From an uncultured Bacteroidota bacterium (GTDB taxonomy: Bacteria > Bacteroidota > Bacteroidia > Chitinophagales > Chitinophagaceae): 64,000 bases of DNA. The position numbers and the translations under genes are program-made. Below are positions 2,854-18,514 of this stretch, one piece after another; the first letter of the stretch is position 1; each line of letters begins with the position of its first letter. The notes under the pieces were generated by a model. That model was not told the origin of the DNA. It did not search any database and worked only from the letters and a program-made list of their open reading frames with translations. The stretch covers positions 1 through 64,000 of the forward strand of contig CAISPO010000038.1 of NCBI GenBank assembly GCA_903887415.1, given 5' to 3'.

Positions 2854-3747
2854 TTAACCAGCATTGCCGGAAGCCTTTCTGAATTCTTCCGGCGTTAGCT
2901 GGGTGTTCTTTTTGAAAAATTTTGTAAAATGGGAATTATCGGAAAAGTTTAGTTGCAGCGCGACCTCTGATATACCCAGGCCTGCATTTATCAGCAGCCT
3001 TTTTGCCTCAAGCAGTATTCTGTCCCTTATCATTTCCCCCGCCGGCTTGCCCATGAGGTCTTTACATAGTGCGTTCAGGTGATTGGGGGTTATATACAGC
3101 ATGGCGGCATAATCTTTCGGCAATCTTTTTTCGGCATAATAACTATCTACCAGCTTTCTGAAGTTGGCCAATATCAGTTGGTTTTGTTGCGGTATGCGGG
3201 CTGGTACACTTGCCGGGCAAGCACGATGCACAATAATAAATAGCTCCATGAGGTACGCACGGATAAGATCAGGAGACAAAGCATCATTTCTTCTTTGTTC
3301 GGCAACGATCCTTCCAAGAATACCGTTTACCTCTTCGCGGGTTTTGCCGGTCAATTGGCACACGCTCTCCCCAGCTATTCCCTTGAAGAACGGATATTGC
3401 GCCAGATATACTTCATTGGATAGAAATGAACGAAACAGCTCATCTGAAAAATTGACCACAAATCCGTCAACGCTGCCCTTAAAATTCCAGCTATGCACCT
3501 GTCCGGGAATCATAAAATAGATCTGCCCCGCTTTCACATCAAATCGTTCAAAATCGATAGTGTGATAACCGCCGCCTTCTGTAAAAAATACAATGTGGTA
3601 GAATGAGTGCCGGTGCGGCAGGTGCAGGTTTGGATGAACCTTCAAATACGCTGCAAACGGATCGGCAATGATCTCATGAAGGGCCTCATCCTGCCCGCTT
3701 AGTGAGCATATATCAAAGACCGGAATTGTATTTTTCAATTGTTTCAT
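2854..3747 (-). CDS. AraC family transcriptional regulator with N-terminal cupin-like domain
   Basis: LHLPHRHSFYHIVFFTEGGGYHTIDF cupin segment; C-terminal HTH LGISEVALQLNFSDNSHFTKFFKKNTQLTPEEFRK. MKQLKNT start preferred. Confidence 0.9.
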   Translation of the reverse strand: MKQLKNTIPVFDICSLSGQDEALHEIIADPFAAYLKVHPNLHLPHRHSFYHIVFFTEGGGYHTIDFERFDVKAGQIYFMIPGQVHSWNFKGSVDGFVVNFSDELFRSFLSNEVYLAQYPFFKGIAGESVCQLTGKTREEVNGILGRIVAEQRRNDALSPDLIRAYLMELFIIVHRACPASVPARIPQQNQLILANFRKLVDSYYAEKRLPKDYAAMLYITPNHLNALCKDLMGKPAGEMIRDRILLEAKRLLINAGLGISEVALQLNFSDNSHFTKFFKKNTQLTPEEFRKASGNAG

Positions 3748-3821
3748 TACACAGCAAAGATACTGCGGACATGGACTTTGCAATGGTAAGAATCAAGGTA
3801 TTATTTGTACTTTTTACTGAT

Positions 3822-4990
3822 TCAGCTATTTTCTGTTTTACCGTCCTTAAACATCACCTTCTTCAGAAATTTTGAAACCGGCATTTCCACAACATGGTAA
3901 AAACACACGCTAAACAGGCACAACCCTACCATAACCACTGGCGGAAAAAGGCCTGAAAAACCATGAAAATAACCACCGTAGCGGCTAATAAGCAGTACGC
4001 CAATATTCTCATGTATCAGGTAGAGAAAATAAGACGCAACACCCACCTTATTTAATGCGCGGAAAATGCCATGCGCAAAAACGCCTGGATACTTGATGAA
4101 CAGGAAGAAAAATAAAAGCGCTCCTGCATAGACTAACGCCGCGGCATGCCCCTGCCACAATATACAGGCGCAAAAGCCCAGCAAAATGGTGGTAAACAGG
4201 CTCCCCAGGTAAGTTTTGTTGCTTTATGAACGAACACCTCATGCAGCAATACACCCGTTAAAAACCAAGGCATGTAAAAAGGTAAATTAAATACTGAGGC
4301 ACAGACTATATAAGCTGCTCTTACTGCGTCGGACAGGTGAACAGGAAGTTTACCGCTGTCCATGCTATACATCAGCAAATAGAGCAGGAAGAGGCCGGTG
4401 CCAATGAAAGAAAAATTTCTTGCAAACTTTGCCCTGTTTGAGAAATAGATGAGGCTGGCCAGGAAATAAAATTGCAGCTCCGGCCACAGCGACCAGTAAG
4501 AGCCACTGAGATAATGTCCTTGAATGTGTAACGGAGCAAGTATTCTGTTTAGCAGAACGGGCGGTAAAAAGGTAATCGAAACCAGGTAATTCAGCAGGCT
4601 GTGGCCCTGAATGAACAAATTATCCTTGTCCAGCAGCACCATCAGGAGCCTGGTAATAAGCGAGGCAAACACCATGGCTGGGAACAGGCGTATAAACCGC
4701 CTTTTCCAAAAGTCAGCAACTGTATTTGTGGCATGGAGCGTATAAGTGATCACAAAGCCGGAGATAATAAAAAAGAACTCCACCCCATATCTGCCCCACT
4801 GAAAGAAATTATATTTTGCCCCGAACGGATACAGGCTCGTGGTGTTTTCCGGCGGGTTCCATCTTGAATAATAATGAAACAGCATTACACTGAGTATGGC
4901 GATGAACCTGAAAAAATCGAGTGTATCTAGTCTTTTAGAATTGTTCAAGTGGGTGGATTGTGTTTGCAAAATAGAACATTGCAAGGGCAT
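3822..4990 (-). pseudogene. Acyltransferase family 3 (OafA/YrhL-like), split by an apparent frameshift
   Basis: ORFs 4133..4990 (LDTLDFFRFIAILSVMLFHYYSRW...GVEFFFIISGFVITYTL) and 3822..4184 (remaining TM helices) join if one G is added to the GGGG run (CCCC on +, 4203-4206). Confidence 0.75.
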
Positions 4991-5071
4991 TTTATATTTT
5001 CACACCAGTTGATTTTTATATAGCAAAACGGAGCTGCCTGTGGCATATCCGTTTTGCTACTATGAGCATCA

Positions 5072-8000
5072 TTATTCCTTCACAAACTTCCTTGTCTCCA
5101 CACCATTCACTTTTACGAAGTACAAACCACCAGCTAATTTTGATACATCAACCCGCACTTCATTAGCATTGTAAATGTTGCTGTAAACTTTTTGTCCAAA
5201 AAGATCCGTGATCGTTACCTGATTGATAATACTTGAGTAAGTAATAGTTAAGGATGAAGCTGCCGGGTTGGGAAATATGGTAAGAACGCCTGCTGTATTA
5301 TCAACAATATTTATCCCGGTTGAACATGGATCAACGGTTACCACTTCCGTGGCAACCGCAGTGCCGCAGCTATTGGTTAAGGAGTAGCTAATTGTAGATG
5401 TGCCTGCAGACAAGCCGCTGACCGTACCTGTAGTATTTACGGAGGCTACTGTAGTATTACTGCTGCTCCATGTTCCGCCCGCAGCGCCATCACTAAGGGC
5501 AGTTATTGAAGAAGTGCATACAGTATCTATGCCTGCGATGGTGCCCGCATCAGGTGCGGCATTCACAGTCACAATAGCTGTTGCCGCGGCTGTGCCGCAG
5601 CTATTGACAACGGTATAGGAGATCGTTGATGTACCAACGGCCACGCCGGTTACTACACCTGTGCTGCCTACTGTTGCAATACCTGTGCTTACACTGCTCC
5701 AGGCGCCACCACCAATGGCATCGGTTAAGTTTGTAGTTGCCGTTGGGCATACTAAGCCAACTCCGGTTATTGTTCCTGCCGATGGTGCTGCGCTAACAGT
5801 TACAATGGCTGTTGCTGCTGCTATGCCGCAACTATTACTTACGGTATAGGAGATTGTTGAAGTACCAACTGCCGCACCGGTTACTACACCTGTGCTGCCT
5901 ACTGTTGCAATACCTGTGCTTACACTGCTCCATGTGCCGCCGCCTGTAGCATCGGTTAAATTAGTAATGGCAGTAGGGCATACTAAATCCACTCCGGTTA
6001 TTGTTCCCGCAGATGGTGTTGCGCTAACAGTCATGATGGCTGTTGCTGCTGCCATACCGCAGCTATTACTCACGGTATAAGAAATTGTAGAAGTACCAAC
6101 AGTCACACCAGTCACAATACCTGTGCTGCCCACAGTAGCAATACCCGTGCTTACACTGCTCCATGTGCCGCCGCCTGTTGCATCAGTTAAGTTTGTTGTT
6201 GCGGTTGGGCATACTAAATCAACACCCGTTATTGTTCCAGCCGAAGGCGTAGTGCTCACAGTTACAATAGTTGTTGCTGCCGCGATACCGCAGCTATTGC
6301 TTACGGTATAAGAGATAATAGATGTACCAACGGCCACACCGGTTACTACTCCTGTGCTGCCTACTGTGGCAATACCTGTGCTTACACTGCTCCATGTGCC
6401 GCCGCCTGTAGCATCAGTTAAGTTTGTAGTTGCCGTTGGGCATACTAAGCCAACTCCGGTTATTGTTCCTGCCGAAGGCGTAGTGCTCACAGTTACAATA
6501 GTTGTTGCTGCCGCGATACCGCAGCTATTGCTTACGGTATAAGAGATAATAGATGTGCCAGCGGCTACACCTGTTACTACTCCTGTGCTGCCTACTGTTG
6601 CAATACCTGTGCTTACACTGCTCCAGGCGCCACCACCGGTAGCATCGGTTAAATTTGTAGTAGCGGTTGGGCATACTAAATCAACACCCGTTATTGTTCC
6701 AGCCGAAGGCGTAGTGCTCACAGTTACAATAGTTGTTGCTGCTGCCATACCGCAGCTATTACTCACGGTATAAGAAATGGTAGAAGTACCAACAGCCACA
6801 CCGGTCACAATACCTGTGCTGCCTACTGTCGCAATGCCTGTGCTTACACTGCTCCATGTGCCGCCGCCTGTAGCATCAGTTAAGTTTGTAGTAGTCGTGG
6901 TACATAGCGTACCGGTGCCAGTAATGCTGCCTGCTGCGGGAGCAACATTCACAGTTACAGTTCCTGTTACGGTAAATCCCGCAACAGTATAAGAGATAGT
7001 AGTTGTGCCAACAGTTGCACCGGTAATAGTGCCGGAAGAAGACCCTACTGTTGCCACGGCGGGATTGCTGCTTACCCATAAGCCGCCTGTTACCGGATCA
7101 CTGAGTGATGTTGTGGCCCCTACGCAGACACTGGTATTGTTAAGATTGACTACAACGGTATCTACCTTAGTAGTATATAGGGTACGGTCGATCAGTGTGA
7201 GCAGGAATATATAGCGGCCGGGCACTGTAAGATTTTGCGCTTCATTGATGCGCTCACCCTGCATAGAAAACGTTGGGTTCGCACCTGCGGGAGCTGATTT
7301 TACAGTCCACCAGTGTGTAATAATATCTCCATCCGGGTCGCTGGTAACGGCGGATAGCAGGCTGCTGTCAACAGGCAGCGACATTACGGCTGGTGTTGCC
7401 GAAACACTGGATATTACCGGGGTATCATTTACAGGGTACACAGGTATTGTTATGTTACGGATGCTAGGGCTGCCAACATGTGATGGATCTGTAACAGAAA
7501 GCTGAACCACGTAATTACCCGGCAGTGTCATGTTGTAAATATCCTGGACGTTTATAGAAATGTTTCTCAAAGCTGCAGTAGCCCCTATGGGTTGGCTAAT
7601 GATAGAATAACTATAAGTTAGCGCATCGCCTTCTATGTCAAACGCAAACCCATGTATTATTGACGTGTCAACAGGCAGGGTTACGATCGTTGGGTTCCTG
7701 CTTTGAAGTGCGGAAATAATTGGCGCCTGGTTGTTAGGGAATACCTCTACGGTAACACTCCTTTTGGTAGTATCGGTACTGCCATCTGCCATGTGTATCG
7801 TGAAAACATAGTTCCCCGCCACGGTCATACCGGTAGCAGTAGGTGCGGCAATGTTCGGATTAGAAAGCACAACCGCAGCCCCCGCAGGGAAACTGTCTAT
7901 TGTCCAGTGATAAGTGACTGTGCTTAGCTCAGGATCCAAACCGCTCGAAGTGAGCGCTACGCTGCTGGCTGGCAAATCCAGGTAGGTTGGCGTTGCTGCC

Positions 8001-9349
8001 CATGTTTCGGGAACGACGGGAAGATTTGCGGTGTGTGGATAGACCGTCATTATTGCCTGGTTTGCGAGCGGCAGGGTTAATGTACCAGAGCCGCCTACCG
8101 TATATACGCCAAACTCAGTATAAGGAGAGCCGCTGCCCAGCACCTGGCTTACCGCATAATTCCCCGCAGGCAGCCCGGCAATGGTAACAGTTGTAGCAAT
8201 GCTCGCCGCATTATTATTCAGTATCAGTGTGGTTATATTGCCTCCCTGGTTGAAAGCCAGGGACACTATGGCGGGTGTATCATTAGACACGGCGGCTATG
8301 CGCACAGCTCCAGGCCTTACATAGTGCATCAATTGCCGGAACGTCCAGTATTTAGCCCCGTGAGTGTACCAGGTGTTATTTGCATTTGGCACACAGTAAT
8401 CACCAATGGCATAGGCTTGCCAGTAAGATACGCCAGCCAGCGTAATATCGTTATAAACTTCACTTATCCCCTCGCCTTGCTCTTCTGTCTGGGCGCTGAT
8501 AATTCCTTTCAGGGTTGCGAGGCTATCTATATCATGGCGGTAAGGATCGTTTGTGCCGTATTTATGGAATGAAAGGCATTTAATATACGGCCATATACCG
8601 GGATCAAGCAGGCCGCTGTCAATGTATTGCCAGCTTTGCTGTGTGGATACACATTCGGGGTACTGGCACCAGGTATTGGTATATCCCGCAGCCTGTACCC
8701 TCGGCATTACGGTCTTGATCATATTGGCAACTAACAGTTCATAGAAAGCATTGCCATTGCCGGCCTCATTGCACATGGTTATATAATTCGGTATAAGGCC
8801 ATACTGGTTTTTAATGTGGTTCATGTAGCTGATATAGTATTCGGCATACTCTCCGGGGCTGTACCTGAGGAAAGCGGGAATATCACCGGTGCTGCCGCCA
8901 TAATACCAGGAAGGGCTCATGTAAAAAAGGAAGCTGTCACCATTACCAACAACTGCATTTCTCCACGGTACGATAAGATTGTTATAATAGTAGTCTATAG
9001 CGCCGCTGTCAAATGCGCTCTCTGTCACGGTATCCGGGCTGCCGTTATCATTGGTCCATTCCCAGGTGTGTTGCTGGCCATAGCTATGGGAATAATTACC
9101 CTGGTACATATCATCCCGCAAACCGGTGAACCCCACCCCGTTTACAGATTCATTGATATCCTGCGTGATCATGTAGGGCGGTGTTCCTTCAAACTGGGTG
9201 TTCTCACCTCCGGCGCCAACCCAGCCCTTTATGGTCTGGTATGTAACCGCACTGTTTACATGGACGGTATCTTGTGCCATTAGCCGCGTTGCTGATAACA
9301 GTGTAATAATTGCAAACAGAATTTTTTTCCTGGAGTATTTTACGATCAT
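5072..9349 (-). CDS. Secreted GH30-like glycoside hydrolase with PKD-like and tandem Ig-like (Big_2-type) repeats and T9SS type A C-terminal domain
   Basis: Signal peptide; YQTIKGWVGAGGENTQ...GFTGLRDDMY...ITMCNEAGNG catalytic-domain-like region; about seven Ig-like repeats; C-terminus LTIFPNPAASSLTITYSS...GLYFVKVNGVETRKFVKE. Confidence 0.75.
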   Translation of the reverse strand: MIVKYSRKKILFAIITLLSATRLMAQDTVHVNSAVTYQTIKGWVGAGGENTQFEGTPPYMITQDINESVNGVGFTGLRDDMYQGNYSHSYGQQHTWEWTNDNGSPDTVTESAFDSGAIDYYYNNLIVPWRNAVVGNGDSFLFYMSPSWYYGGSTGDIPAFLRYSPGEYAEYYISYMNHIKNQYGLIPNYITMCNEAGNGNAFYELLVANMIKTVMPRVQAAGYTNTWCQYPECVSTQQSWQYIDSGLLDPGIWPYIKCLSFHKYGTNDPYRHDIDSLATLKGIISAQTEEQGEGISEVYNDITLAGVSYWQAYAIGDYCVPNANNTWYTHGAKYWTFRQLMHYVRPGAVRIAAVSNDTPAIVSLAFNQGGNITTLILNNNAASIATTVTIAGLPAGNYAVSQVLGSGSPYTEFGVYTVGGSGTLTLPLANQAIMTVYPHTANLPVVPETWAATPTYLDLPASSVALTSSGLDPELSTVTYHWTIDSFPAGAAVVLSNPNIAAPTATGMTVAGNYVFTIHMADGSTDTTKRSVTVEVFPNNQAPIISALQSRNPTIVTLPVDTSIIHGFAFDIEGDALTYSYSIISQPIGATAALRNISINVQDIYNMTLPGNYVVQLSVTDPSHVGSPSIRNITIPVYPVNDTPVISSVSATPAVMSLPVDSSLLSAVTSDPDGDIITHWWTVKSAPAGANPTFSMQGERINEAQNLTVPGRYIFLLTLIDRTLYTTKVDTVVVNLNNTSVCVGATTSLSDPVTGGLWVSSNPAVATVGSSSGTITGATVGTTTISYTVAGFTVTGTVTVNVAPAAGSITGTGTLCTTTTTNLTDATGGGTWSSVSTGIATVGSTGIVTGVAVGTSTISYTVSNSCGMAAATTIVTVSTTPSAGTITGVDLVCPTATTNLTDATGGGAWSSVSTGIATVGSTGVVTGVAAGTSIISYTVSNSCGIAAATTIVTVSTTPSAGTITGVGLVCPTATTNLTDATGGGTWSSVSTGIATVGSTGVVTGVAVGTSIISYTVSNSCGIAAATTIVTVSTTPSAGTITGVDLVCPTATTNLTDATGGGTWSSVSTGIATVGSTGIVTGVTVGTSTISYTVSNSCGMAAATAIMTVSATPSAGTITGVDLVCPTAITNLTDATGGGTWSSVSTGIATVGSTGVVTGAAVGTSTISYTVSNSCGIAAATAIVTVSAAPSAGTITGVGLVCPTATTNLTDAIGGGAWSSVSTGIATVGSTGVVTGVAVGTSTISYTVVNSCGTAAATAIVTVNAAPDAGTIAGIDTVCTSSITALSDGAAGGTWSSSNTTVASVNTTGTVSGLSAGTSTISYSLTNSCGTAVATEVVTVDPCSTGINIVDNTAGVLTIFPNPAASSLTITYSSIINQVTITDLFGQKVYSNIYNANEVRVDVSKLAGGLYFVKVNGVETRKFVKE
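5340..7080 (-). repeat. In-frame tandem array of 77-aa (231-bp) Ig-like modules
   Basis: Units of the form PSAGTITGVDLVCPTATTNLTDATGGGTWSSVSTGIATVGSTGVVTGVAVGTSTISYTVSNSCGIAAATTIVTVST; antisense artefact ORFs recur exactly every 231 bp (5661, 5892, 6123, 6354). Confidence 0.9.
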
Positions 9350-9395
9350 AAAAGTGGATTAACTGACTATGTGTGTGAATTGATTGCTTAAGGTG

Positions 9396-12300
9396 TTAAT
9401 GTACCACTATAAACCTCCTGGTTTCTGAAACCGCGCCCGACTGGAATTTTAAAAAGTAAGACCCGTTATTAAAGCCATCTACAGAAAAGACAGACTGGTG
9501 ACTGCCTTGCGGTTCGTTTGAGCTGCTCTGTGTCATCAGCCTGCCCAAAACATCATATACGGTAAGTGTAACAGTACCGGCCTCGGGAATGGTGTAAGCT
9601 ACGGTATAATTTTGCTGCACCACGGTCGGGTACAGGGAAATAATATCTGCTTTCCCCGGAGCAGGTACTGAGGTGGTGAGGACAGTTGGCACACCAATGA
9701 AATGCGCCGCTGCATTTCTTTGTGCGCTCCATGTACTTACCCTGAACAGCTTCACGTCTGTAACCCCCGCTGCCATGTCCATTGGCGGGTCTGCGCGCAC
9801 TGCGCGCAATTGTGCAAGATCATTAAGCAGAGATGTTGTATCTACCAATATATTATGTACTTTATTGGCTACATCATCCAGGTAATGGAGGTTTGTAGTT
9901 GCAGAGTTTCTGTAAAAACCGGCATTAGCATCAGGTGACGTGAGGTCTTCCCAAACTGAATCAGCGGTTCCGCCTACAGCGTTTGATTGCCCCCAGTCAT
10001 TATAAATACCCAAAGTGCTGAGGCCAGCACCGGAGCCTTCCATTAAACATGTGGTGCGGTCCACCTGGTTAAAATGGTTCAGCATGAGTGTGAGATTTCC
10101 TGTGAAATTATTGGTATGAACGATAGATTCATGGCAGGCAGTATCGAGATACCAGGCCATACAGGCGACCGATAATTTTCCTGAGCAGTTTTCAAGGTCA
10201 ATTAACCCATCTGTGAGGCCCGGACTATAACCTTCATACCACATACCTTCTGCAGTGATACGGCCGCCATTGACAACGCTGAATAAATTCTGCCCGCCGC
10301 CGCCTGCACCGCCCAGGCAGGAGAACTGGCCGTTAGTATTCCCGCCGGAAGAAAGCACTGTTCCTCCTTTGGCTTTTATTGCGCCGTTCAGGCACTCGCC
10401 CGGGCCGCCGCAAATAAGCGTTATGTCACTGTTCTCCACACCATCGGCATATATGCCTACATCGCCAAAGTGGTCCACATCATGCCCGCCTGCATGAAAC
10501 TGGTTGCCGAAAATGCGCCCGCCCACCTGGTCTGCATTTTGGATGACTAGCGGTTCTACGCCTGAATTATATGTCGATATTAGCAGCATATCTTTCATCG
10601 TTATGCGGCTCGGTCCCGCGCAATTCATAATAGGGCCTGTGGTGTCGCCAGTCCACGTCAGCCGTGTAATAGTTCCCGAGCCTACACCATCACCTATAAG
10701 CTGCATATCACTGTTTGCAGGTACATTTATGGTACGGGCGATATTGAACAAGCCATTAGGAATATGCACAACAGGCTTGTTACCCAGCGGCAGCATCGCG
10801 GCTGAATCTATTTTTGTTTGTATCGCTAATGCATCGTCTCCTGTACCGGTGGGCACTTCAAAAATAGTGCGGTGCATATTTGGGGGGGTGCCGGGCAAGG
10901 AAACGGTTGTGGGCGCCGGTATTGCCGAGGAATCTACAACACTATTGTCCAGGGAAATATAGGTGCCCCAGGGTTCATCAGCGCCGCATAATAATCCCGT
11001 GGGGTCTTGAGTCAGGTCATTGCTCACTGAATCATATAAATGGAATTCGATCACCTCTATCCAGCCGGATGCATTATCAACGGTTGGCCGGAATTCATAG
11101 ATACCGTAAGGAGTGGTATTAGTGATGGTGTAGGTATGCAGGCCACCGCCGCCTGTAAATGTTTGCGCCACTTCGGTATCCAGCGTGGTCCATGTATATC
11201 CCCAATCGTTTGATGCCCGTAAAATGAAAGTACCAGGCGATTTGCCCCCGCTGTTGGGCGGTGCTGATAAGGTGTATTTTTTCACTGTTCTTCTGGTTCC
11301 CAGCGGGCAGTTCCACTGAATACCGCCGAGCCCGTCGGCAACTTGCGATGCAAAACTCGTGGTGGGATCATTGTCTATACTTTTTTCTATTTGCTTGCCC
11401 ACATTGTAGGATCCACCAAGGCCATGGTCAAACTGCTGGAATCCCGGCTGTATGGGAAAGTAAGGCCAGATATGCTGCGTCTTACAGAAAGTATTTCCTA
11501 TTACCGTATTGGAGCCGTTCCTTACACGGGCAGAGGGCCAGGCATTGCTTGGTGTGCTGATTATGTTGTCCACCAGCACCGAGCCTATGCTTGTATGCAC
11601 AGAATCATCGACATTGCTGTATATCTTATTGCCTTGCAGATAGCCATCCTCTGTTTGAAGAAAACAGGTGGAGTTAATGGACGTATTATTGACCATGACA
11701 TTCTTATATGGGGAGCCGCTGATATCGTACCAGACTGATCTTAGGAAAACATTTCCATATGCCTGGCAATACCCCGTGCATTGGTCCAGCGCTGCATGGC
11801 AGTCAGCAAAAAGGCAATTCCATACCCATTGGTCCAGGCTGTTCCAGTTGCAACTGCTTATGCCATACTTCACCCCGGTGAACCGGCAGCGGAGAATTGC
11901 ATTTTCCGCTTGGCCATTTACCGGCGCACCAAAGTCTATTCCAACGCTGTAAACGGGATTAAAATTTGTGAACCAAAGATCACTCCATTCGCAACCAGTA
12001 GAAAATCCGCCGGTATGGAAAATACCCCAGCCTGCTGTGCCATTCCCGTCAAAGGTTAAACGGCTGACCCGCATGTACCAGCCATTGATATACATCATTT
12101 TCCCAAACGCCGGGCCGTTCCATTTAATGATAGTAGTTGCCGGGTCTTCACCAATGATCTGCACGCCAGAATAGTCTTCACCGCTTACCCGGTCTATATT
12201 GAATAAGGTATCGTCTATGAGGTAGGTGCCCGCCGGGAAGTACAGCACATTATAATTGTTTGTCCCCGTATTTTTCATAGCCAGCAAGGCCGCATTTATT

Positions 12301-12497
12301 GCCGCAGCATCATCGGTCACACCATCGCCCATCGCCCCGAAGTCGGTCTTTACATTTTTCCAGCTGGAAAAAGGCCCTGAGAATTCCTCTCCGGTAGCAT
12401 AATAAGTCACTGTTTGTGCAAAAGAAGAATTTTTATTACAAACTAAACAGAACATAAAAGCAAATAGCAGGTAGAAGCGATGTATAGTTATACGCAT
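9396..12497 (-). CDS. Secreted pectate lyase-like/GH55-like beta-helix protein with T9SS type A C-terminal domain
   Basis: WKNVKTDFGAMGDGVTDDAAAINAAL...VLYFPAGTYLIDDTLF is a Pectate_lyase_3-type motif; C-terminus IISLYPTVVQQNYTVAYTIPEAGTVTLTVYDVLGR...GSYFLKFQSGAVSETRRFIVVH. Confidence 0.8.
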   Translation of the reverse strand: MRITIHRFYLLFAFMFCLVCNKNSSFAQTVTYYATGEEFSGPFSSWKNVKTDFGAMGDGVTDDAAAINAALLAMKNTGTNNYNVLYFPAGTYLIDDTLFNIDRVSGEDYSGVQIIGEDPATTIIKWNGPAFGKMMYINGWYMRVSRLTFDGNGTAGWGIFHTGGFSTGCEWSDLWFTNFNPVYSVGIDFGAPVNGQAENAILRCRFTGVKYGISSCNWNSLDQWVWNCLFADCHAALDQCTGYCQAYGNVFLRSVWYDISGSPYKNVMVNNTSINSTCFLQTEDGYLQGNKIYSNVDDSVHTSIGSVLVDNIISTPSNAWPSARVRNGSNTVIGNTFCKTQHIWPYFPIQPGFQQFDHGLGGSYNVGKQIEKSIDNDPTTSFASQVADGLGGIQWNCPLGTRRTVKKYTLSAPPNSGGKSPGTFILRASNDWGYTWTTLDTEVAQTFTGGGGLHTYTITNTTPYGIYEFRPTVDNASGWIEVIEFHLYDSVSNDLTQDPTGLLCGADEPWGTYISLDNSVVDSSAIPAPTTVSLPGTPPNMHRTIFEVPTGTGDDALAIQTKIDSAAMLPLGNKPVVHIPNGLFNIARTINVPANSDMQLIGDGVGSGTITRLTWTGDTTGPIMNCAGPSRITMKDMLLISTYNSGVEPLVIQNADQVGGRIFGNQFHAGGHDVDHFGDVGIYADGVENSDITLICGGPGECLNGAIKAKGGTVLSSGGNTNGQFSCLGGAGGGGQNLFSVVNGGRITAEGMWYEGYSPGLTDGLIDLENCSGKLSVACMAWYLDTACHESIVHTNNFTGNLTLMLNHFNQVDRTTCLMEGSGAGLSTLGIYNDWGQSNAVGGTADSVWEDLTSPDANAGFYRNSATTNLHYLDDVANKVHNILVDTTSLLNDLAQLRAVRADPPMDMAAGVTDVKLFRVSTWSAQRNAAAHFIGVPTVLTTSVPAPGKADIISLYPTVVQQNYTVAYTIPEAGTVTLTVYDVLGRLMTQSSSNEPQGSHQSVFSVDGFNNGSYFLKFQSGAVSETRRFIVVH

Positions 12498-12665
12498 AGA
12501 AGTGTGTGTTTATTAACCGGAAGTTATTAATTAAAACTTGAATACTATCATGAAACATTAAAAGCAAAAATTATGCCGCTTTTAACATTTTTGTAAAATA
12601 AAAATTTGCAGGCCAGGAAGGAAAATGAAACTTCAAAAACAAGAAATTGAGGTAGAAATACGCGG

Positions 12666-12674
12666 TTATCCACA
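12666..12674 (+). promoter_or_regulatory. DnaA-box-like 9-mer TTATCCACA (exact consensus)
   Basis: Read directly from the intergenic region upstream of mraZ. Confidence 0.55.
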
Positions 12675-12741
12675 TGCCCTTTCATCCACGATTTCCTACC
12701 AGCAGATAGCAATAACAGTCTTTATTTCCTGAATAAACAGG

Positions 12742-12750
12742 TTATCCACG
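12742..12750 (+). promoter_or_regulatory. DnaA-box-like 9-mer TTATCCACG (one mismatch)
   Basis: Read directly from sequence. Confidence 0.4.
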
Positions 12751-12762
12751 CCAACTAACAGG

Positions 12763-12771
12763 TTATCAACA
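12763..12771 (+). promoter_or_regulatory. DnaA-box-like 9-mer TTATCAACA (one mismatch)
   Basis: Read directly from sequence; followed by a T-rich stretch. Confidence 0.4.
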
Positions 12772-12845
12772 CTCTTTTTTTGGATTTACGGTATAAATAC
12801 ACCTAAAATACAATACAGGCAAGGCTTTCAGCTCATATATCAGGA

Positions 12846-12854
12846 TGTGGATAA
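12846..12854 (-). promoter_or_regulatory. DnaA-box-like 9-mer TTATCCACA on minus strand (TGTGGATAA on plus)
   Basis: Exact reverse complement of the consensus. Confidence 0.55.
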
Positions 12855-12873
12855 ATATGTTATGTTATTTTGA

Positions 12874-12908
12874 TGGAAAGAAGTGGGAAAAAGTGTTATT
12901 TTGTGGAG
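12874..12908 (+). promoter_or_regulatory. Candidate MraZ-box array upstream of mraZ
   Basis: TGGAA-N5-TGGGA-N5-TGTTA-N5-TGGAG at 12874, 12884, 12894 and 12904: exact 10-bp phasing, 32 nt before the mraZ ATG. Confidence 0.6.
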
Positions 12909-12939
12909 ATAATTGTTTTTATCGTTTCTTAACACACAC

Positions 12940-13407
12940 ATGACCAACTTTCTCGGTGAATATGAAGTAGCAATAGACGCCAAAGGGCGCTTCTTATTGC
13001 CATCGGGATTCCGGAAGCAGCTTGCTGAAGGGATGGGGGAAAAGTTTGTCATAAACCGTGGTTTTGAAAACTGTCTTTCGATATACACAATGGATGTATG
13101 GAGTGCGATCAGTGAAAAGATAAATCGCCTCAATGATTTCAAACCTGCCGTAAGGGAATTCAAAAGATTATTTCTGAACGGAGCAACAATAGTGGAAGCA
13201 GACAGTGCAGACCGCATACTGCTGCCTAAACCCTTGCAAGACCATGCAGGAATTAAGAAAGATGCTGTGTTGAGTGCGCAGGGCAATAAAATAGAATTGT
13301 GGGATAAAGATACTTATTATAATTATCTCCGTGAGCGTGTTGGCGGTTTCAGCAAGCTGGCGGAAGAGGTGGCAAATGATTTCGGGAACCCTTTTGAAAA
13401 TCTATAA
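12940..13407 (+). CDS. mraZ: Transcriptional regulator/division protein MraZ
   Basis: MTNFLGEYEVAIDAKGRFLLPSGFRKQL is diagnostic of MraZ; first gene of the dcw cluster. ATG at 12940 preferred over the upstream TTG of the ORF call. Confidence 0.95.
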   Translation: MTNFLGEYEVAIDAKGRFLLPSGFRKQLAEGMGEKFVINRGFENCLSIYTMDVWSAISEKINRLNDFKPAVREFKRLFLNGATIVEADSADRILLPKPLQDHAGIKKDAVLSAQGNKIELWDKDTYYNYLRERVGGFSKLAEEVANDFGNPFENL

Positions 13408-13408
13408 A

Positions 13409-14320
13409 ATGGGCACACCCGGTTTTTACCACACAACAGTTCTTTTACAGGAAGCCGTAGATGGGTTGGCAATAAAGGAAAACGGGGTATATGTGGATGC
13501 CACATTTGGCGGCGGCGGACACAGCAGGCTGATACTGGAAAAGCTGGGGCCGCAGGGAAAGCTGATAGCGTTTGACCAGGACGCAGATGCGTGGAAGAAC
13601 AAACCGGACGATGAAAGGCTGATACCGGTGACTGAGAACTTTAAATATCTGAAACGGTTTTTAAGGTTACACGGGCAGAGTGAGGTGGACGGGATACTGG
13701 CAGATCTCGGCGTAAGTTCTTTCCAGTTTGATACGGCAGAGCGCGGATTTTCGATACGCTTCGACGGGCCGCTGGATATGAGGATGGACAAACGGTCAGA
13801 GCTGACAGCAGCAGAGGTACTGAAGACCTATAGCGAACAACAGTTGCATACGCTCTTTGAACAATACGGTGAAGTGCGCAATTCGAAAGAACTTGCTAAG
13901 CACATAGTGGCCCAGCGTAAAGGACGTACGGTGCAAAGTATAGCTGCTCTGAAAGCGACTTTGGAGCCAGTGATGCGAGGCAACCCAAACAAATACCTGG
14001 CACAGGTGTTCCAGGCGCTGCGGATAGAAGTGAATGATGAGCTGGGTGCACTGAAGGAGTTTTTGCAACAGGCTGCTGTAAGCCTGAAGCCAGGCGGAAG
14101 ATTAAGCGTGATATCGTTTCACTCACTGGAAGACCGGATAGTGAAACACTATATAAAAAGAGGGCGATGGGATGAAGCAGGTGAATATGAAGAAGCAATA
14201 GTACCGCTACTAAAACCAGTGAATGCGAAACCGATAGAGCCGGGAGATGCAGAAATAAAGAACAACCCGCGCTCGCGCAGCGCCCGGTTGAGAATAGGTG
14301 AAAAAGTGCCAAGTTCATAA
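13409..14320 (+). CDS. rsmH: 16S rRNA (cytosine(1402)-N(4))-methyltransferase
   Basis: MGTPGFYHTTVLLQEAVDGLAIKENGVYVDATFGGGGHSRLIL...ADLGVSSFQFDTAERGFSIRFDGPLDMRMD...NPRSRSARLRIGEK. Confidence 0.97.
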   Translation: MGTPGFYHTTVLLQEAVDGLAIKENGVYVDATFGGGGHSRLILEKLGPQGKLIAFDQDADAWKNKPDDERLIPVTENFKYLKRFLRLHGQSEVDGILADLGVSSFQFDTAERGFSIRFDGPLDMRMDKRSELTAAEVLKTYSEQQLHTLFEQYGEVRNSKELAKHIVAQRKGRTVQSIAALKATLEPVMRGNPNKYLAQVFQALRIEVNDELGALKEFLQQAAVSLKPGGRLSVISFHSLEDRIVKHYIKRGRWDEAGEYEEAIVPLLKPVNAKPIEPGDAEIKNNPRSRSARLRIGEKVPSS

Positions 14321-14521: not shown

Positions 14522-14878
14522 ATGAGTAACGAAGAGCAGATGAGTCAGACGCAGGAAGCGCTGACGCCCGCACAACGGGTTAGGAACGACTGGCGGTCGT
14601 TAGTGGAAAAAGTATCTTATAAAGCGATAGTCAATAATATTCCTTTCCTAGCCTTCATAGCCTTGTTATGCGTGTTGTATATCAGCAACAGCCACCGTGC
14701 TATTGATATACAGCGGGAGATAAACGCGCAAAACAAAATACTTAAGGAACTGCGCTGGAAGTATATGGACACGAAATCGCAACTGATGTATGTGAAGACA
14801 GAAACGCAGGTAATAAGGAGCGCAGAAAAAATAGGCCTGAAGCCATCATTGCTTCCGGCCTATAAGATTAAGAAATAA
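14522..14878 (+). CDS. ftsL: FtsL-like small bitopic division protein
   Basis: 118 aa, single TM (IPFLAFIALLCVLYISNSH) then a coiled-coil-like segment, between rsmH and ftsI. Confidence 0.75.
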   Translation: MSNEEQMSQTQEALTPAQRVRNDWRSLVEKVSYKAIVNNIPFLAFIALLCVLYISNSHRAIDIQREINAQNKILKELRWKYMDTKSQLMYVKTETQVIRSAEKIGLKPSLLPAYKIKK

Positions 14879-14957: not shown

Positions 14958-17048
14958 GTGGACATAAAAAAAGACATACGGTTCAGGGTGTACATCGCTT
15001 TTACATGCATTTGCGTGTTTGGGCTTGCTATCATCATCAAAGCCGCGATGATCCAGGTAAAAGAAGGGCCTAAGCTGCGGGCAATGGCTAAAGAAATGCA
15101 TACCCGTTTTGATACATTGATCGCCGAGCGCGGCAACATATATACGGAGGACGGTGTACTGCTGAGCTCGTCCATACCCGAATTTGATGTGCATATTGAT
15201 TTCTCTGTGATAGATTCCGGCCTTTTTGCCAAAAATATTGATTCGCTCTCCCGCTGCGCCTCCCGCTTGTTCGCAGATAAATCGGCTGAAGAGTACAAGG
15301 AAGAATTTGTGCGTGCATATAACGAAGAAGACAAATACTACCTGCTGGGCCACAAAATGAAGTACTACCAATACGAGGCCCTTCGGTCGTTCCCCATTTT
15401 CAATAAAGGAAAAGGCTACGGGGGCTTTATAGAAGACTCCAAAGAAAAGCGTACAACACCGTATGACCTGCTGGCAAAAAGAGTAATAGGCGAGTTCAGG
15501 GACAGTAACATAACCGGCCTGGAGGCAAAATATAACAAGGAGCTGATCGGTGAGAATGGCCGCCGCGTAGTGCAGAAAAGCACGGGTAATGTATGGGTGC
15601 CTATAGAAGGATCGGAAGTGGACCCGGTAAATGGCAAGGACATAGTAACCACGATAGACATCAATGTGCAGGATGTGGCGGAACACGCGCTCATGAGCAT
15701 ACTGGAAAAATATGAGTGCCTTTACGGTACTTGTATCGTAATGGAAGTAAAGACCGGCAAGATACGGACGCTGGTAAACCTCGGCAGGCAGACTAATGGC
15801 AGTTACTGGGAAGACTACAATTATGCACTCAGCCCTACGGAGCCGGGCTCCACCTTTAAGTTGGTAACCCTGCTGTCGCTGCTGAATGATAAACTCACTA
15901 ATGTGGACAATATAGTGGATGCAGAGGGCGGCGCTATACGTTTTGGCAATGATGTAATGAAGGATTCGCACCTTGGCCTTCATGCTATGCCGATATGGAA
16001 AGCTTATGCCGAATCGAGCAACGCTGCTTTTGCTAAGCTGGCTTATACTTACTACAGAGAAAATCCAACGAAGTTCACAGACCACCTCAAGGCGCTGCAC
16101 CTGGACAAACCAACCGGAATAGATCTGATCGGGGAACGCCCCACCCGCGTTATAACACCAGCCTCTAAAGACTGGAGCAACACATCGCTGCCCTGGATGG
16201 CTGCGGGGTATAATGTTCAGATCACTCCGCTGCATACGTGCATGTTATACAACTCCATTGCCAACAATGGTAAGATGATGAAGCCTTACCTGGTAAGCTC
16301 TATAAAAGAATATGGCAAAGAGGTGAAAACTTTTGAGCCAACGGAAATTGAGCAGGTTGGCGACTCCTCGGTAGTGGCACAGATCCAAAAGTGTATGCGC
16401 GCTGTCGTTACCGAAGGCACGGCTAAAGGCATTGAATCACCTTATTATACAATGGCGGGCAAGACAGGCACCGCTCAGGTGGCCGATAAAGGCATCAGAT
16501 ACACAGATGGTGTTTACCAGGGTTCTTTTGTAGGCTTCCTGCCTGCCGACCAGCCTAAGTACACGATCTGCGTAGTGATCAGGACAAAAGCACATTCGGC
16601 TGCATATTATGGCGGAGCCATAGCAGCACCGGTATTCAGGATGGTGGCCGATAAAATATTCTCCGAGAACATTGGCGCCTGGGGCGGCCCGCTGGACAGC
16701 CTCGCTAAAAACGGCAGTGGAAGCATACCTGCGAGGGCGGCTACAGCAAGGAATTATCGCGTAATGCTCAATGCACTGGATAAGCATACCGCCCTGCCCG
16801 GAGAAAATATTAACCGGATGATGGAGCTAAAGACAGACTCCAGCAAACACATGACCGTAACCGCGAAGAAAATATACCGCAACATAATGCCGGATGTGAC
16901 CGGCATGGGCGTAAAGGACGCTGTATATATGCTGGAAGTGAGCGGCCTGCAGGTAACGGTGCAGGGCAAAGGAAAAGTACGCGGACAATCAATAACACCG
17001 GGAACACCCATAATCAAAGGACAAACGATAATACTGCAATTAAGCTAA
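14958..17048 (+). CDS. ftsI: Penicillin-binding protein, FtsI/PBP3 type, with C-terminal PASTA domain
   Basis: PTEPGSTFKLVTLL (SxxK), AESSNAAFAKLAY (SxN), MAGKTGTAQVADKG (KTG) motifs; PASTA IMPDVTGMGVKDAVYMLEVSGLQVTVQG. GTG start. Confidence 0.93.
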   Translation: MDIKKDIRFRVYIAFTCICVFGLAIIIKAAMIQVKEGPKLRAMAKEMHTRFDTLIAERGNIYTEDGVLLSSSIPEFDVHIDFSVIDSGLFAKNIDSLSRCASRLFADKSAEEYKEEFVRAYNEEDKYYLLGHKMKYYQYEALRSFPIFNKGKGYGGFIEDSKEKRTTPYDLLAKRVIGEFRDSNITGLEAKYNKELIGENGRRVVQKSTGNVWVPIEGSEVDPVNGKDIVTTIDINVQDVAEHALMSILEKYECLYGTCIVMEVKTGKIRTLVNLGRQTNGSYWEDYNYALSPTEPGSTFKLVTLLSLLNDKLTNVDNIVDAEGGAIRFGNDVMKDSHLGLHAMPIWKAYAESSNAAFAKLAYTYYRENPTKFTDHLKALHLDKPTGIDLIGERPTRVITPASKDWSNTSLPWMAAGYNVQITPLHTCMLYNSIANNGKMMKPYLVSSIKEYGKEVKTFEPTEIEQVGDSSVVAQIQKCMRAVVTEGTAKGIESPYYTMAGKTGTAQVADKGIRYTDGVYQGSFVGFLPADQPKYTICVVIRTKAHSAAYYGGAIAAPVFRMVADKIFSENIGAWGGPLDSLAKNGSGSIPARAATARNYRVMLNALDKHTALPGENINRMMELKTDSSKHMTVTAKKIYRNIMPDVTGMGVKDAVYMLEVSGLQVTVQGKGKVRGQSITPGTPIIKGQTIILQLS

Positions 17049-18514
17049 TGCCGATATTACGCGACATACTGGTAAATGTAACCCCTTTGGCAACACAAGG
17101 TGATGCAACTGTGCGGGTGGATAGCGTATGCATCGATTCACGTAAAGTGACGAGGGGCAGTGCATTTATTGCAGTCCGGGGTACGCTTTCCGATGGCCAT
17201 GCCTTTATCGAAAAGGCTATCGGGCAAGGAGCATCAGTCATTGTATGCGAGCGGCTGCCGGAAATGATGGTAGCCGGAACAACATTTGTGCAGGTGAAAA
17301 ACAGCGCAGAAGCAGCCGGGCTAATGGCAGATGCATTTTACGGATTCCCATCGAAAGAGCTGAAAGTAGTGGGTATTACCGGAACCAATGGCAAAACAAC
17401 CACTGCAACTCTTTTATACAAATTGTTTGAAGCGCTCGGCCATAAAAGCGGATTGCTTTCTACTGTCCAAAACCATATTCATGATAAAGTAGTGGAGGCA
17501 ACGCATACCACACCCGATTCGGTATCTATTCATGCATTGCTGCGGGAAATGGCGGATGCAGGCTGTACTTATGCATTTATGGAAGTAAGCTCTCACGCCA
17601 TTCACCAGCGCCGCATAGCAGGCATAAGGTTCGTGGGCGGCGTATTTACCAATATTACCCACGATCATCTCGACTACCATAAAACATTTGACGAATACAT
17701 AAGGGTAAAGAAACAATTCTTTGACGATCTGCCTGAAACAGCGTTTGCATTAACTAATGCAGATGACAAACGGGGTATGGTGATGCTGCAGAACACAAAA
17801 GCAGATAAGCATACCTACAGCCTGCGTATGCCGGCAACCGTGAAAGGCAAGGTGCTGGAAAATAATCTTACCGGCCTGTTCATGAACGTAGATGGCCAGG
17901 ACGTGCATTTCAGGCTCATCGGCACATTCAACGCATACAACCTGCTGGCAGTGTACGGTGCAGCAAAATTGCTTGGACAAGACAAAATGGAGGTGCTCGC
18001 TGTGCTCAGCGGTTTGCAGGGAGCAGCAGGGCGTTTTGAAACGTACTTCTCTCCGAAAGATAAAATACTGGGCATTGTCGATTATGCGCATACCCCCGAT
18101 GCATTGATAAATGTGCTGGCCACCATCAACCAGTTGCGCCAGGATGGGCAGCAGTTGATAACAGTAGCCGGCTGCGGCGGTGACCGTGACAAAACCAAGC
18201 GGCCGATAATGGCGCAAGTGGTATGCGAGCACAGCGATAGGGCAATCCTTACATCGGACAACCCACGAAGCGAGGACCCGGAACAGATACTTAACGATAT
18301 GGAAGCCGGGCTTACTGCCCCGCAGAAGAGAAAGAGCCTGCGCATCACCGACAGGAGAGAAGCGATAAAGGTTGCATGTTCACTTGCCCAGGCCGGCGAT
18401 ATAGTGTTGGTAGCAGGTAAGGGGCATGAGACCTACCAGGAAATAAAAGGAGTAAAACATCATTTTGATGACCGCGAAGTATTAACCGAAGCATTTGAAA
18501 CATTAAATAAATAA
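17048..18514 (+). CDS. murE: UDP-N-acetylmuramoyl-tripeptide synthetase MurE
   Basis: VVGITGTNGKTTTATLLYKLF, THTTPDSV, GIVDYAHTPDAL, GCGGDRDKTKRPIM, TSDNPRSEDP. Confidence 0.95.
   Translation: MPILRDILVNVTPLATQGDATVRVDSVCIDSRKVTRGSAFIAVRGTLSDGHAFIEKAIGQGASVIVCERLPEMMVAGTTFVQVKNSAEAAGLMADAFYGFPSKELKVVGITGTNGKTTTATLLYKLFEALGHKSGLLSTVQNHIHDKVVEATHTTPDSVSIHALLREMADAGCTYAFMEVSSHAIHQRRIAGIRFVGGVFTNITHDHLDYHKTFDEYIRVKKQFFDDLPETAFALTNADDKRGMVMLQNTKADKHTYSLRMPATVKGKVLENNLTGLFMNVDGQDVHFRLIGTFNAYNLLAVYGAAKLLGQDKMEVLAVLSGLQGAAGRFETYFSPKDKILGIVDYAHTPDALINVLATINQLRQDGQQLITVAGCGGDRDKTKRPIMAQVVCEHSDRAILTSDNPRSEDPEQILNDMEAGLTAPQKRKSLRITDRREAIKVACSLAQAGDIVLVAGKGHETYQEIKGVKHHFDDREVLTEAFETLNK

Follow-up and report, generated by a model that had tools for sequence, protein, structure and literature searches.

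Conserved DnaA-type boxes upstream of mraZ point to a probable replication-initiator input into the division operon of Chitinophagaceae

The coupling between replication initiation and division in bacteria is still an open question. In Caulobacter crescentus, the ftsZ promoter carries DnaA boxes, with DnaA binding and dependence both reported (PMC8203912); in Bacillus subtilis, ChIP finds DnaA at ftsL, a promoter of the dcw cluster (PMC8203912); and E. coli has DnaA boxes upstream of ftsZ, in ftsQA, which were shown not to control ftsZ (PMC8203912). MraZ, for its part, is described as binding direct repeats in front of its own gene (AAAGTG[T/G] being the consensus in Mollicutes), and E. coli MraZ binds and represses its own promoter (PMC8475190).

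The Bacteroidota locus studied here resembles C. crescentus ftsZ in placing DnaA boxes in a division-gene promoter, and E. coli ftsQA in having them within the dcw cluster. It differs from the former, a single gene of an alphaproteobacterium, in heading the whole dcw cluster and in carrying phased, two-sided boxes, to which DnaA is predicted to bind, next to MraZ-type repeats. The B. subtilis ftsL promoter is a different one within the cluster than that of mraZ, and the E. coli boxes lie inside genes, whereas those of mraZ occupy an intergenic region, with phasing and conservation at the promoter that opens the cluster. With the MraZ autoregulatory boxes of E. coli and Mollicutes the locus has in common that direct repeats stand in the mraZ promoter; unlike those, the repeats here follow a DnaA-box module at a fixed spacing. 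Its head-of-cluster place, phased two-sided layout, coupling to MraZ-type repeats and conservation across a family set this module apart, and no earlier description of mraZ with a DnaA box was found in the open-access papers searched. We consider it probable that the cluster makes the dcw promoter responsive to DnaA, in combination with MraZ autoregulation; we do not take it for an origin. Set precisely in front of all the division genes, the module is a direct, testable candidate link between replication and division in Bacteroidota.

Anatomy of the mraZ upstream region

The window (the whole 64,000-nucleotide stretch analysed) is the start of contig C38 of a 4.73-Mb genome in 74 contigs, whose near relatives are labelled Flavipsychrobacter or Chitinophagaceae. 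The first-pass annotation had proposed two exact and two one-mismatch DnaA boxes beside a T/A-rich stretch, at a point of divergent transcription. We re-found both exact 9-mers (12666, forward; 12846, reverse) and both one-mismatch boxes (12742 and 12763, forward) where it had put them, and place the T/A-rich stretch at 12772–12803. Large open reading frames occupy the minus strand from 2857 to 12500 and the plus strand from mraZ (12940) to 43236, on to 46681. The upstream region and first dcw genes comprise:

12666–12674, forward strand: outermost exact DnaA box TTATCCACA, a lineage-specific extra outside the conserved core
12742–12750, forward strand: DnaA-like box TTATCCACG, preceding the reverse box by 104 bp (distance class 100–104)
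12763–12771, forward strand: DnaA-like box TTATCAACA, preceding the reverse box by 83 bp (distance class 78–83) and following box TTATCCACG by 21 bp
12806–12833, no strand assigned: spacer block between forward and reverse boxes, moderately conserved in an alignment of 16 loci
12846–12854, reverse strand: DnaA box TTATCCACA, the most conserved element of the module
12883–12907, forward strand: three 10-bp-spaced repeats GTGGG/GTGTT/GTGGA, probable MraZ operator
12897–12904, forward strand: candidate −7 promoter box TATTTTGT of the TAnnTTGY type
12940–13407, forward strand: mraZ, first gene of the dcw operon (Pfam MraZ, 109 bits)
13409–14320, forward strand: rsmH (mraW; Pfam Methyltransf_5, 315 bits)
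14522–14878, forward strand: ftsL-like gene (Pfam FtsL_2)
14958–17048, forward strand: division transpeptidase of ftsI type with a PASTA domain (Pfam Transpeptidase, PBP_dimer, PASTA)
17048–18514, forward strand: Mur ligase in murE position (Pfam Mur_ligase families)

Box 12742–12750 falls in a block that aligns with relatives' loci; among the loci compared, the only other one with the outermost box in this position belongs to a very near relative (L034). The spacer block belongs to neither kind of site, DnaA box or MraZ repeat, and upstream sequence outside the conserved blocks is poorly conserved. Downstream of the boxes, the MraZ-type direct repeats GTGGGAAAAAGTGTTATTTTGTG (12883–12905; with the last repeat complete, GTGGGAAAAA GTGTTATTTT GTGGA, 12883–12907) are conserved in the family. 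Their first letter lies 37 bp beyond that of the reverse box, a distance fixed among loci that favours a promoter role for the box. Membership of the reverse box in these repeats was rejected: its TGG lies 26 bp from the nearest repeat-like TGG, off the 10-bp register. The TAnnTTGY type of −7 box is described in a flavobacterium (PMC9723704), and the predicted mraZ start site lies near 12909, with the centre of the reverse box near −59. On the other side of the boxes, positions 5072–12497 hold two large divergently transcribed genes. Their products, probably secreted, carry Por_Secre_tail sorting domains of type IX secretion, together with a pectate-lyase-like domain in one and near-identical Ig-like repeats in the other.

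Chance expectation and conservation in the family

Exact TTATCCACA occurs 73 times in the 4.73-Mb genome, against 41 for the reversed control word. The first-pass expectation of 0.0015 exact boxes in this space has to be raised about twofold, the genome rate giving 0.003 per 201 bp. Genome-wide, 0.21 exact pairs within 190 bp are expected, which is not improbable, and the boxes upstream of mraZ form the only close exact pair in the genome. Four TTATC[CA]AC[AG] sites in 190 bp have a genome-wide expectation of 3.6e-5, a figure for a degenerate word picked after the sites had been seen. A cluster that arose by chance and does nothing could thus draw on one exact pair being expected in about one in five such genomes; we regard it as a negligible prospect in view of how its position, orientation and helical phase are conserved. 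We take this conservation, and not chance statistics, to be the decisive evidence.

Conservation of the boxes in relatives had been named beforehand as a check, and all three properties are kept in most of 90 family genomes. Allowing one mismatch at most, a reverse box lies within a 30-bp interval, −102 to −72 of mraZ, in 81/90, a forward box at −215 to −155 in 73/90, and a forward box together with a reverse box (−105 to −72) in 68/90; these genomes share kinship, making the counts non-independent events and tempering their weight for a DnaA-responsive promoter. The same reading must accommodate the roughly 10 percent of the 90 that lack a clear reverse box. The box matched 213 times against a median of 7 for letter-shuffled words (60 shuffles, one of which equalled the box itself and was set aside). 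Reverse boxes are of the type TTWTCCACA, and their letter pattern, TT[A/T]TCCACA, varies mostly at position 3, where A and T alternate just as they do in classical DnaA boxes.

Phasing between the two groups adds further support. Among 82 genomes anchored on the reverse box, 69 have a forward box 70–125 bp above it, at distances mostly near 81, 91, 102 and 112 bp (main classes 78–83, 89–94, 100–104 and 109–116), and neighbouring forward boxes are usually 10–11 or 20–22 bp apart. The distances follow a helical period of ~10.7 bp (R = 0.71), a value reached in none of 5,000 randomisations. The module comprises one reverse box at a fixed distance from the MraZ-type repeats and one to three forward boxes mostly 80–115 bp farther upstream, on the same helical face. 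Judged from these alignments, it is kept in most sampled Chitinophagaceae genomes, with box position conserved relative to the gene and its predicted promoter.

The arrangement is also largely specific to mraZ. A whole-genome search of 150 family members for the pair pattern (forward box, 60–90 bp, reverse box) returned 71 places, of which 52, in 50 genomes, lie directly upstream of mraZ; two of the other 19 are the likely oriC of relative G111. The reversed pair pattern gave ~10 places in all across the 150. The window itself is not among these places, as its two forward boxes depart from the strict pattern at their last or sixth letter. Since the gene upstream of mraZ differs among relatives while the boxes stay, the boxes belong to mraZ, again as a promoter module would. 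Their assignment to the divergent upstream gene was rejected, that gene being common to just one near relative among the loci compared.

Beyond the family, a class-wide search for the reverse box plus GTGGGA returned mostly chance matches; seven loci examined from four further families of the class do precede mraZ and keep the reverse-box layout, a further point in favour of the promoter reading. In Rufibacter and Adhaeribacter (L057, L063 and L064), box clusters precede mraZ at −97 to −138 in another arrangement, with reverse boxes followed by a forward box.

Location of the replication origin

Clustered TTATCCACA-type boxes beside a T/A-rich stretch are shared with bacterial oriC, and the first-pass annotation had offered an origin as one of two readings. 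Divergent transcription and the presence of the genome's only close exact-box pair fit that proposal; GC skew, sampled in 20-kb pieces in three complete relatives whose mraZ is preceded by a box, speaks against it. The sign of the skew does not change across mraZ in any of them, and unlike an oriC the cluster sits away from the switch, by ~0.6–1.1 Mb. In G022 the minus-to-plus switch falls at 620–650 kb, with mraZ at 42 kb and ppiD at 669 kb; in G118 it falls between ~3.1 and 3.27 Mb (mraZ 2.11 Mb, ppiD 3.165 Mb); and in G112 at 169–220 kb (mraZ 882 kb, ppiD 195 kb). The gene ppiD is thus within or close to the switch in each. Across 13 genomes with large contigs, 0.49 Mb or more separates it from mraZ, the range being ~0.49–3 Mb in the ten besides these three.

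Box clusters near ppiD offer alternative candidate origins. G111 carries 11 boxes between ppiD and nadA, near mnmG, at least seven of them exact TTATCCACA (L173 9797–10099), which we consider its likely oriC and a strong candidate for the clade. In G022, six DnaA-like boxes at 640.2–640.5 kb (L183 220–516), inside the skew switch and ~28 kb from ppiD, are the probable oriC. The likely oriC of the family is accordingly at or near ppiD/nadA. The window's own genome has ppiD on C46, a different contig from C38, and there the nadA–ppiD intergenic region (L193 880–1530; C46 ~46.3–46.95 kb) carries five boxes and a weak minus-to-plus change in a noisy skew; this region is likely to be the oriC. The window has no skew switch at 12.9 kb, although skew in this genome is noisy and its own contigs alone are not decisive.

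An origin at mraZ is therefore rejected by skew in the relatives together with the separate nadA–ppiD region, and we assign it only a very slight probability. An origin beside dnaA was likewise rejected, the genome's own dnaA locus (L001) containing no TTATC[CA]AC[AG]-type box. DnaA-box clusters beside dcw should not be annotated as origins without skew or depth evidence.

A candidate two-input switch and its probable reader

The other first-pass reading, a replication-initiator input into the division operon, is supported by position-specific, helically phased conservation of boxes at the mraZ promoter. DnaA would bind both the forward boxes, with their phasing, and the reverse box close to the promoter; these two groups would touch via DnaA oligomerisation or a short loop, and this contact would set dcw operon transcription. 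MraZ would repress from its repeats, which span the core promoter. The division genes would in this way be transcribed according to how much replication initiator is present or to its nucleotide state. As to sign, with the centre of the reverse box near −59 relative to the predicted start, activation seems somewhat likelier than repression, a judgement from layout. Whether the module represents an ancestral, family-wide coupling of replication and division in Bacteroidota, with phased-box DnaA and MraZ acting as a two-input switch that times the whole dcw operon, is a broader proposal to which we give slightly less than an even chance.

Several points weigh against a DnaA-responsive promoter. 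Binding and expression are read from layout, with promoter position a prediction; G111, despite its strong likely oriC, has almost no boxes at mraZ; and the E. coli boxes upstream of ftsZ, which do not control that gene (PMC8203912), provide a cautionary precedent. Multiple phased boxes at a non-origin locus could alternatively serve mainly for titration of DnaA or a change of its nucleotide state, akin to datA/DARS of E. coli, any effect on mraZ being secondary. We judge this improbable: the fixed distance to the MraZ repeats and to the mraZ start points to transcription, the boxes remain with mraZ when the neighbouring gene changes, and they lie anywhere between 0.5 and 3 Mb away from the origin marker.

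For the promoter reading, the likeliest reader of the boxes would be DnaA, since the genome's own DnaA has a standard domain IV, which aligns with the E. coli DnaA of PDB 1j1v and keeps the DHTT motif. TTATCCACA is also the box of the likely oriC of G111, further linking the word to this protein. A different transcription factor might instead recognise TTWTCCACA-like sites, DnaA binding at mraZ being a prediction; position 5 of the reverse box is C in 84/88, stricter than the loose DnaA consensus, which allows any base there. Such a factor is unlikely, in that the sequence, its allowed variation and the tandem layout phased at 10–11 bp all fit DnaA, and the same word builds the likely oriC of G111. 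Elsewhere in the window's genome (L002; C44 ~131.2–131.4 kb), a short protein encoded by an open frame of 171 aa has a DnaA domain-IV-like region and no initiator domain, and its neighbours look like mobile-element genes.
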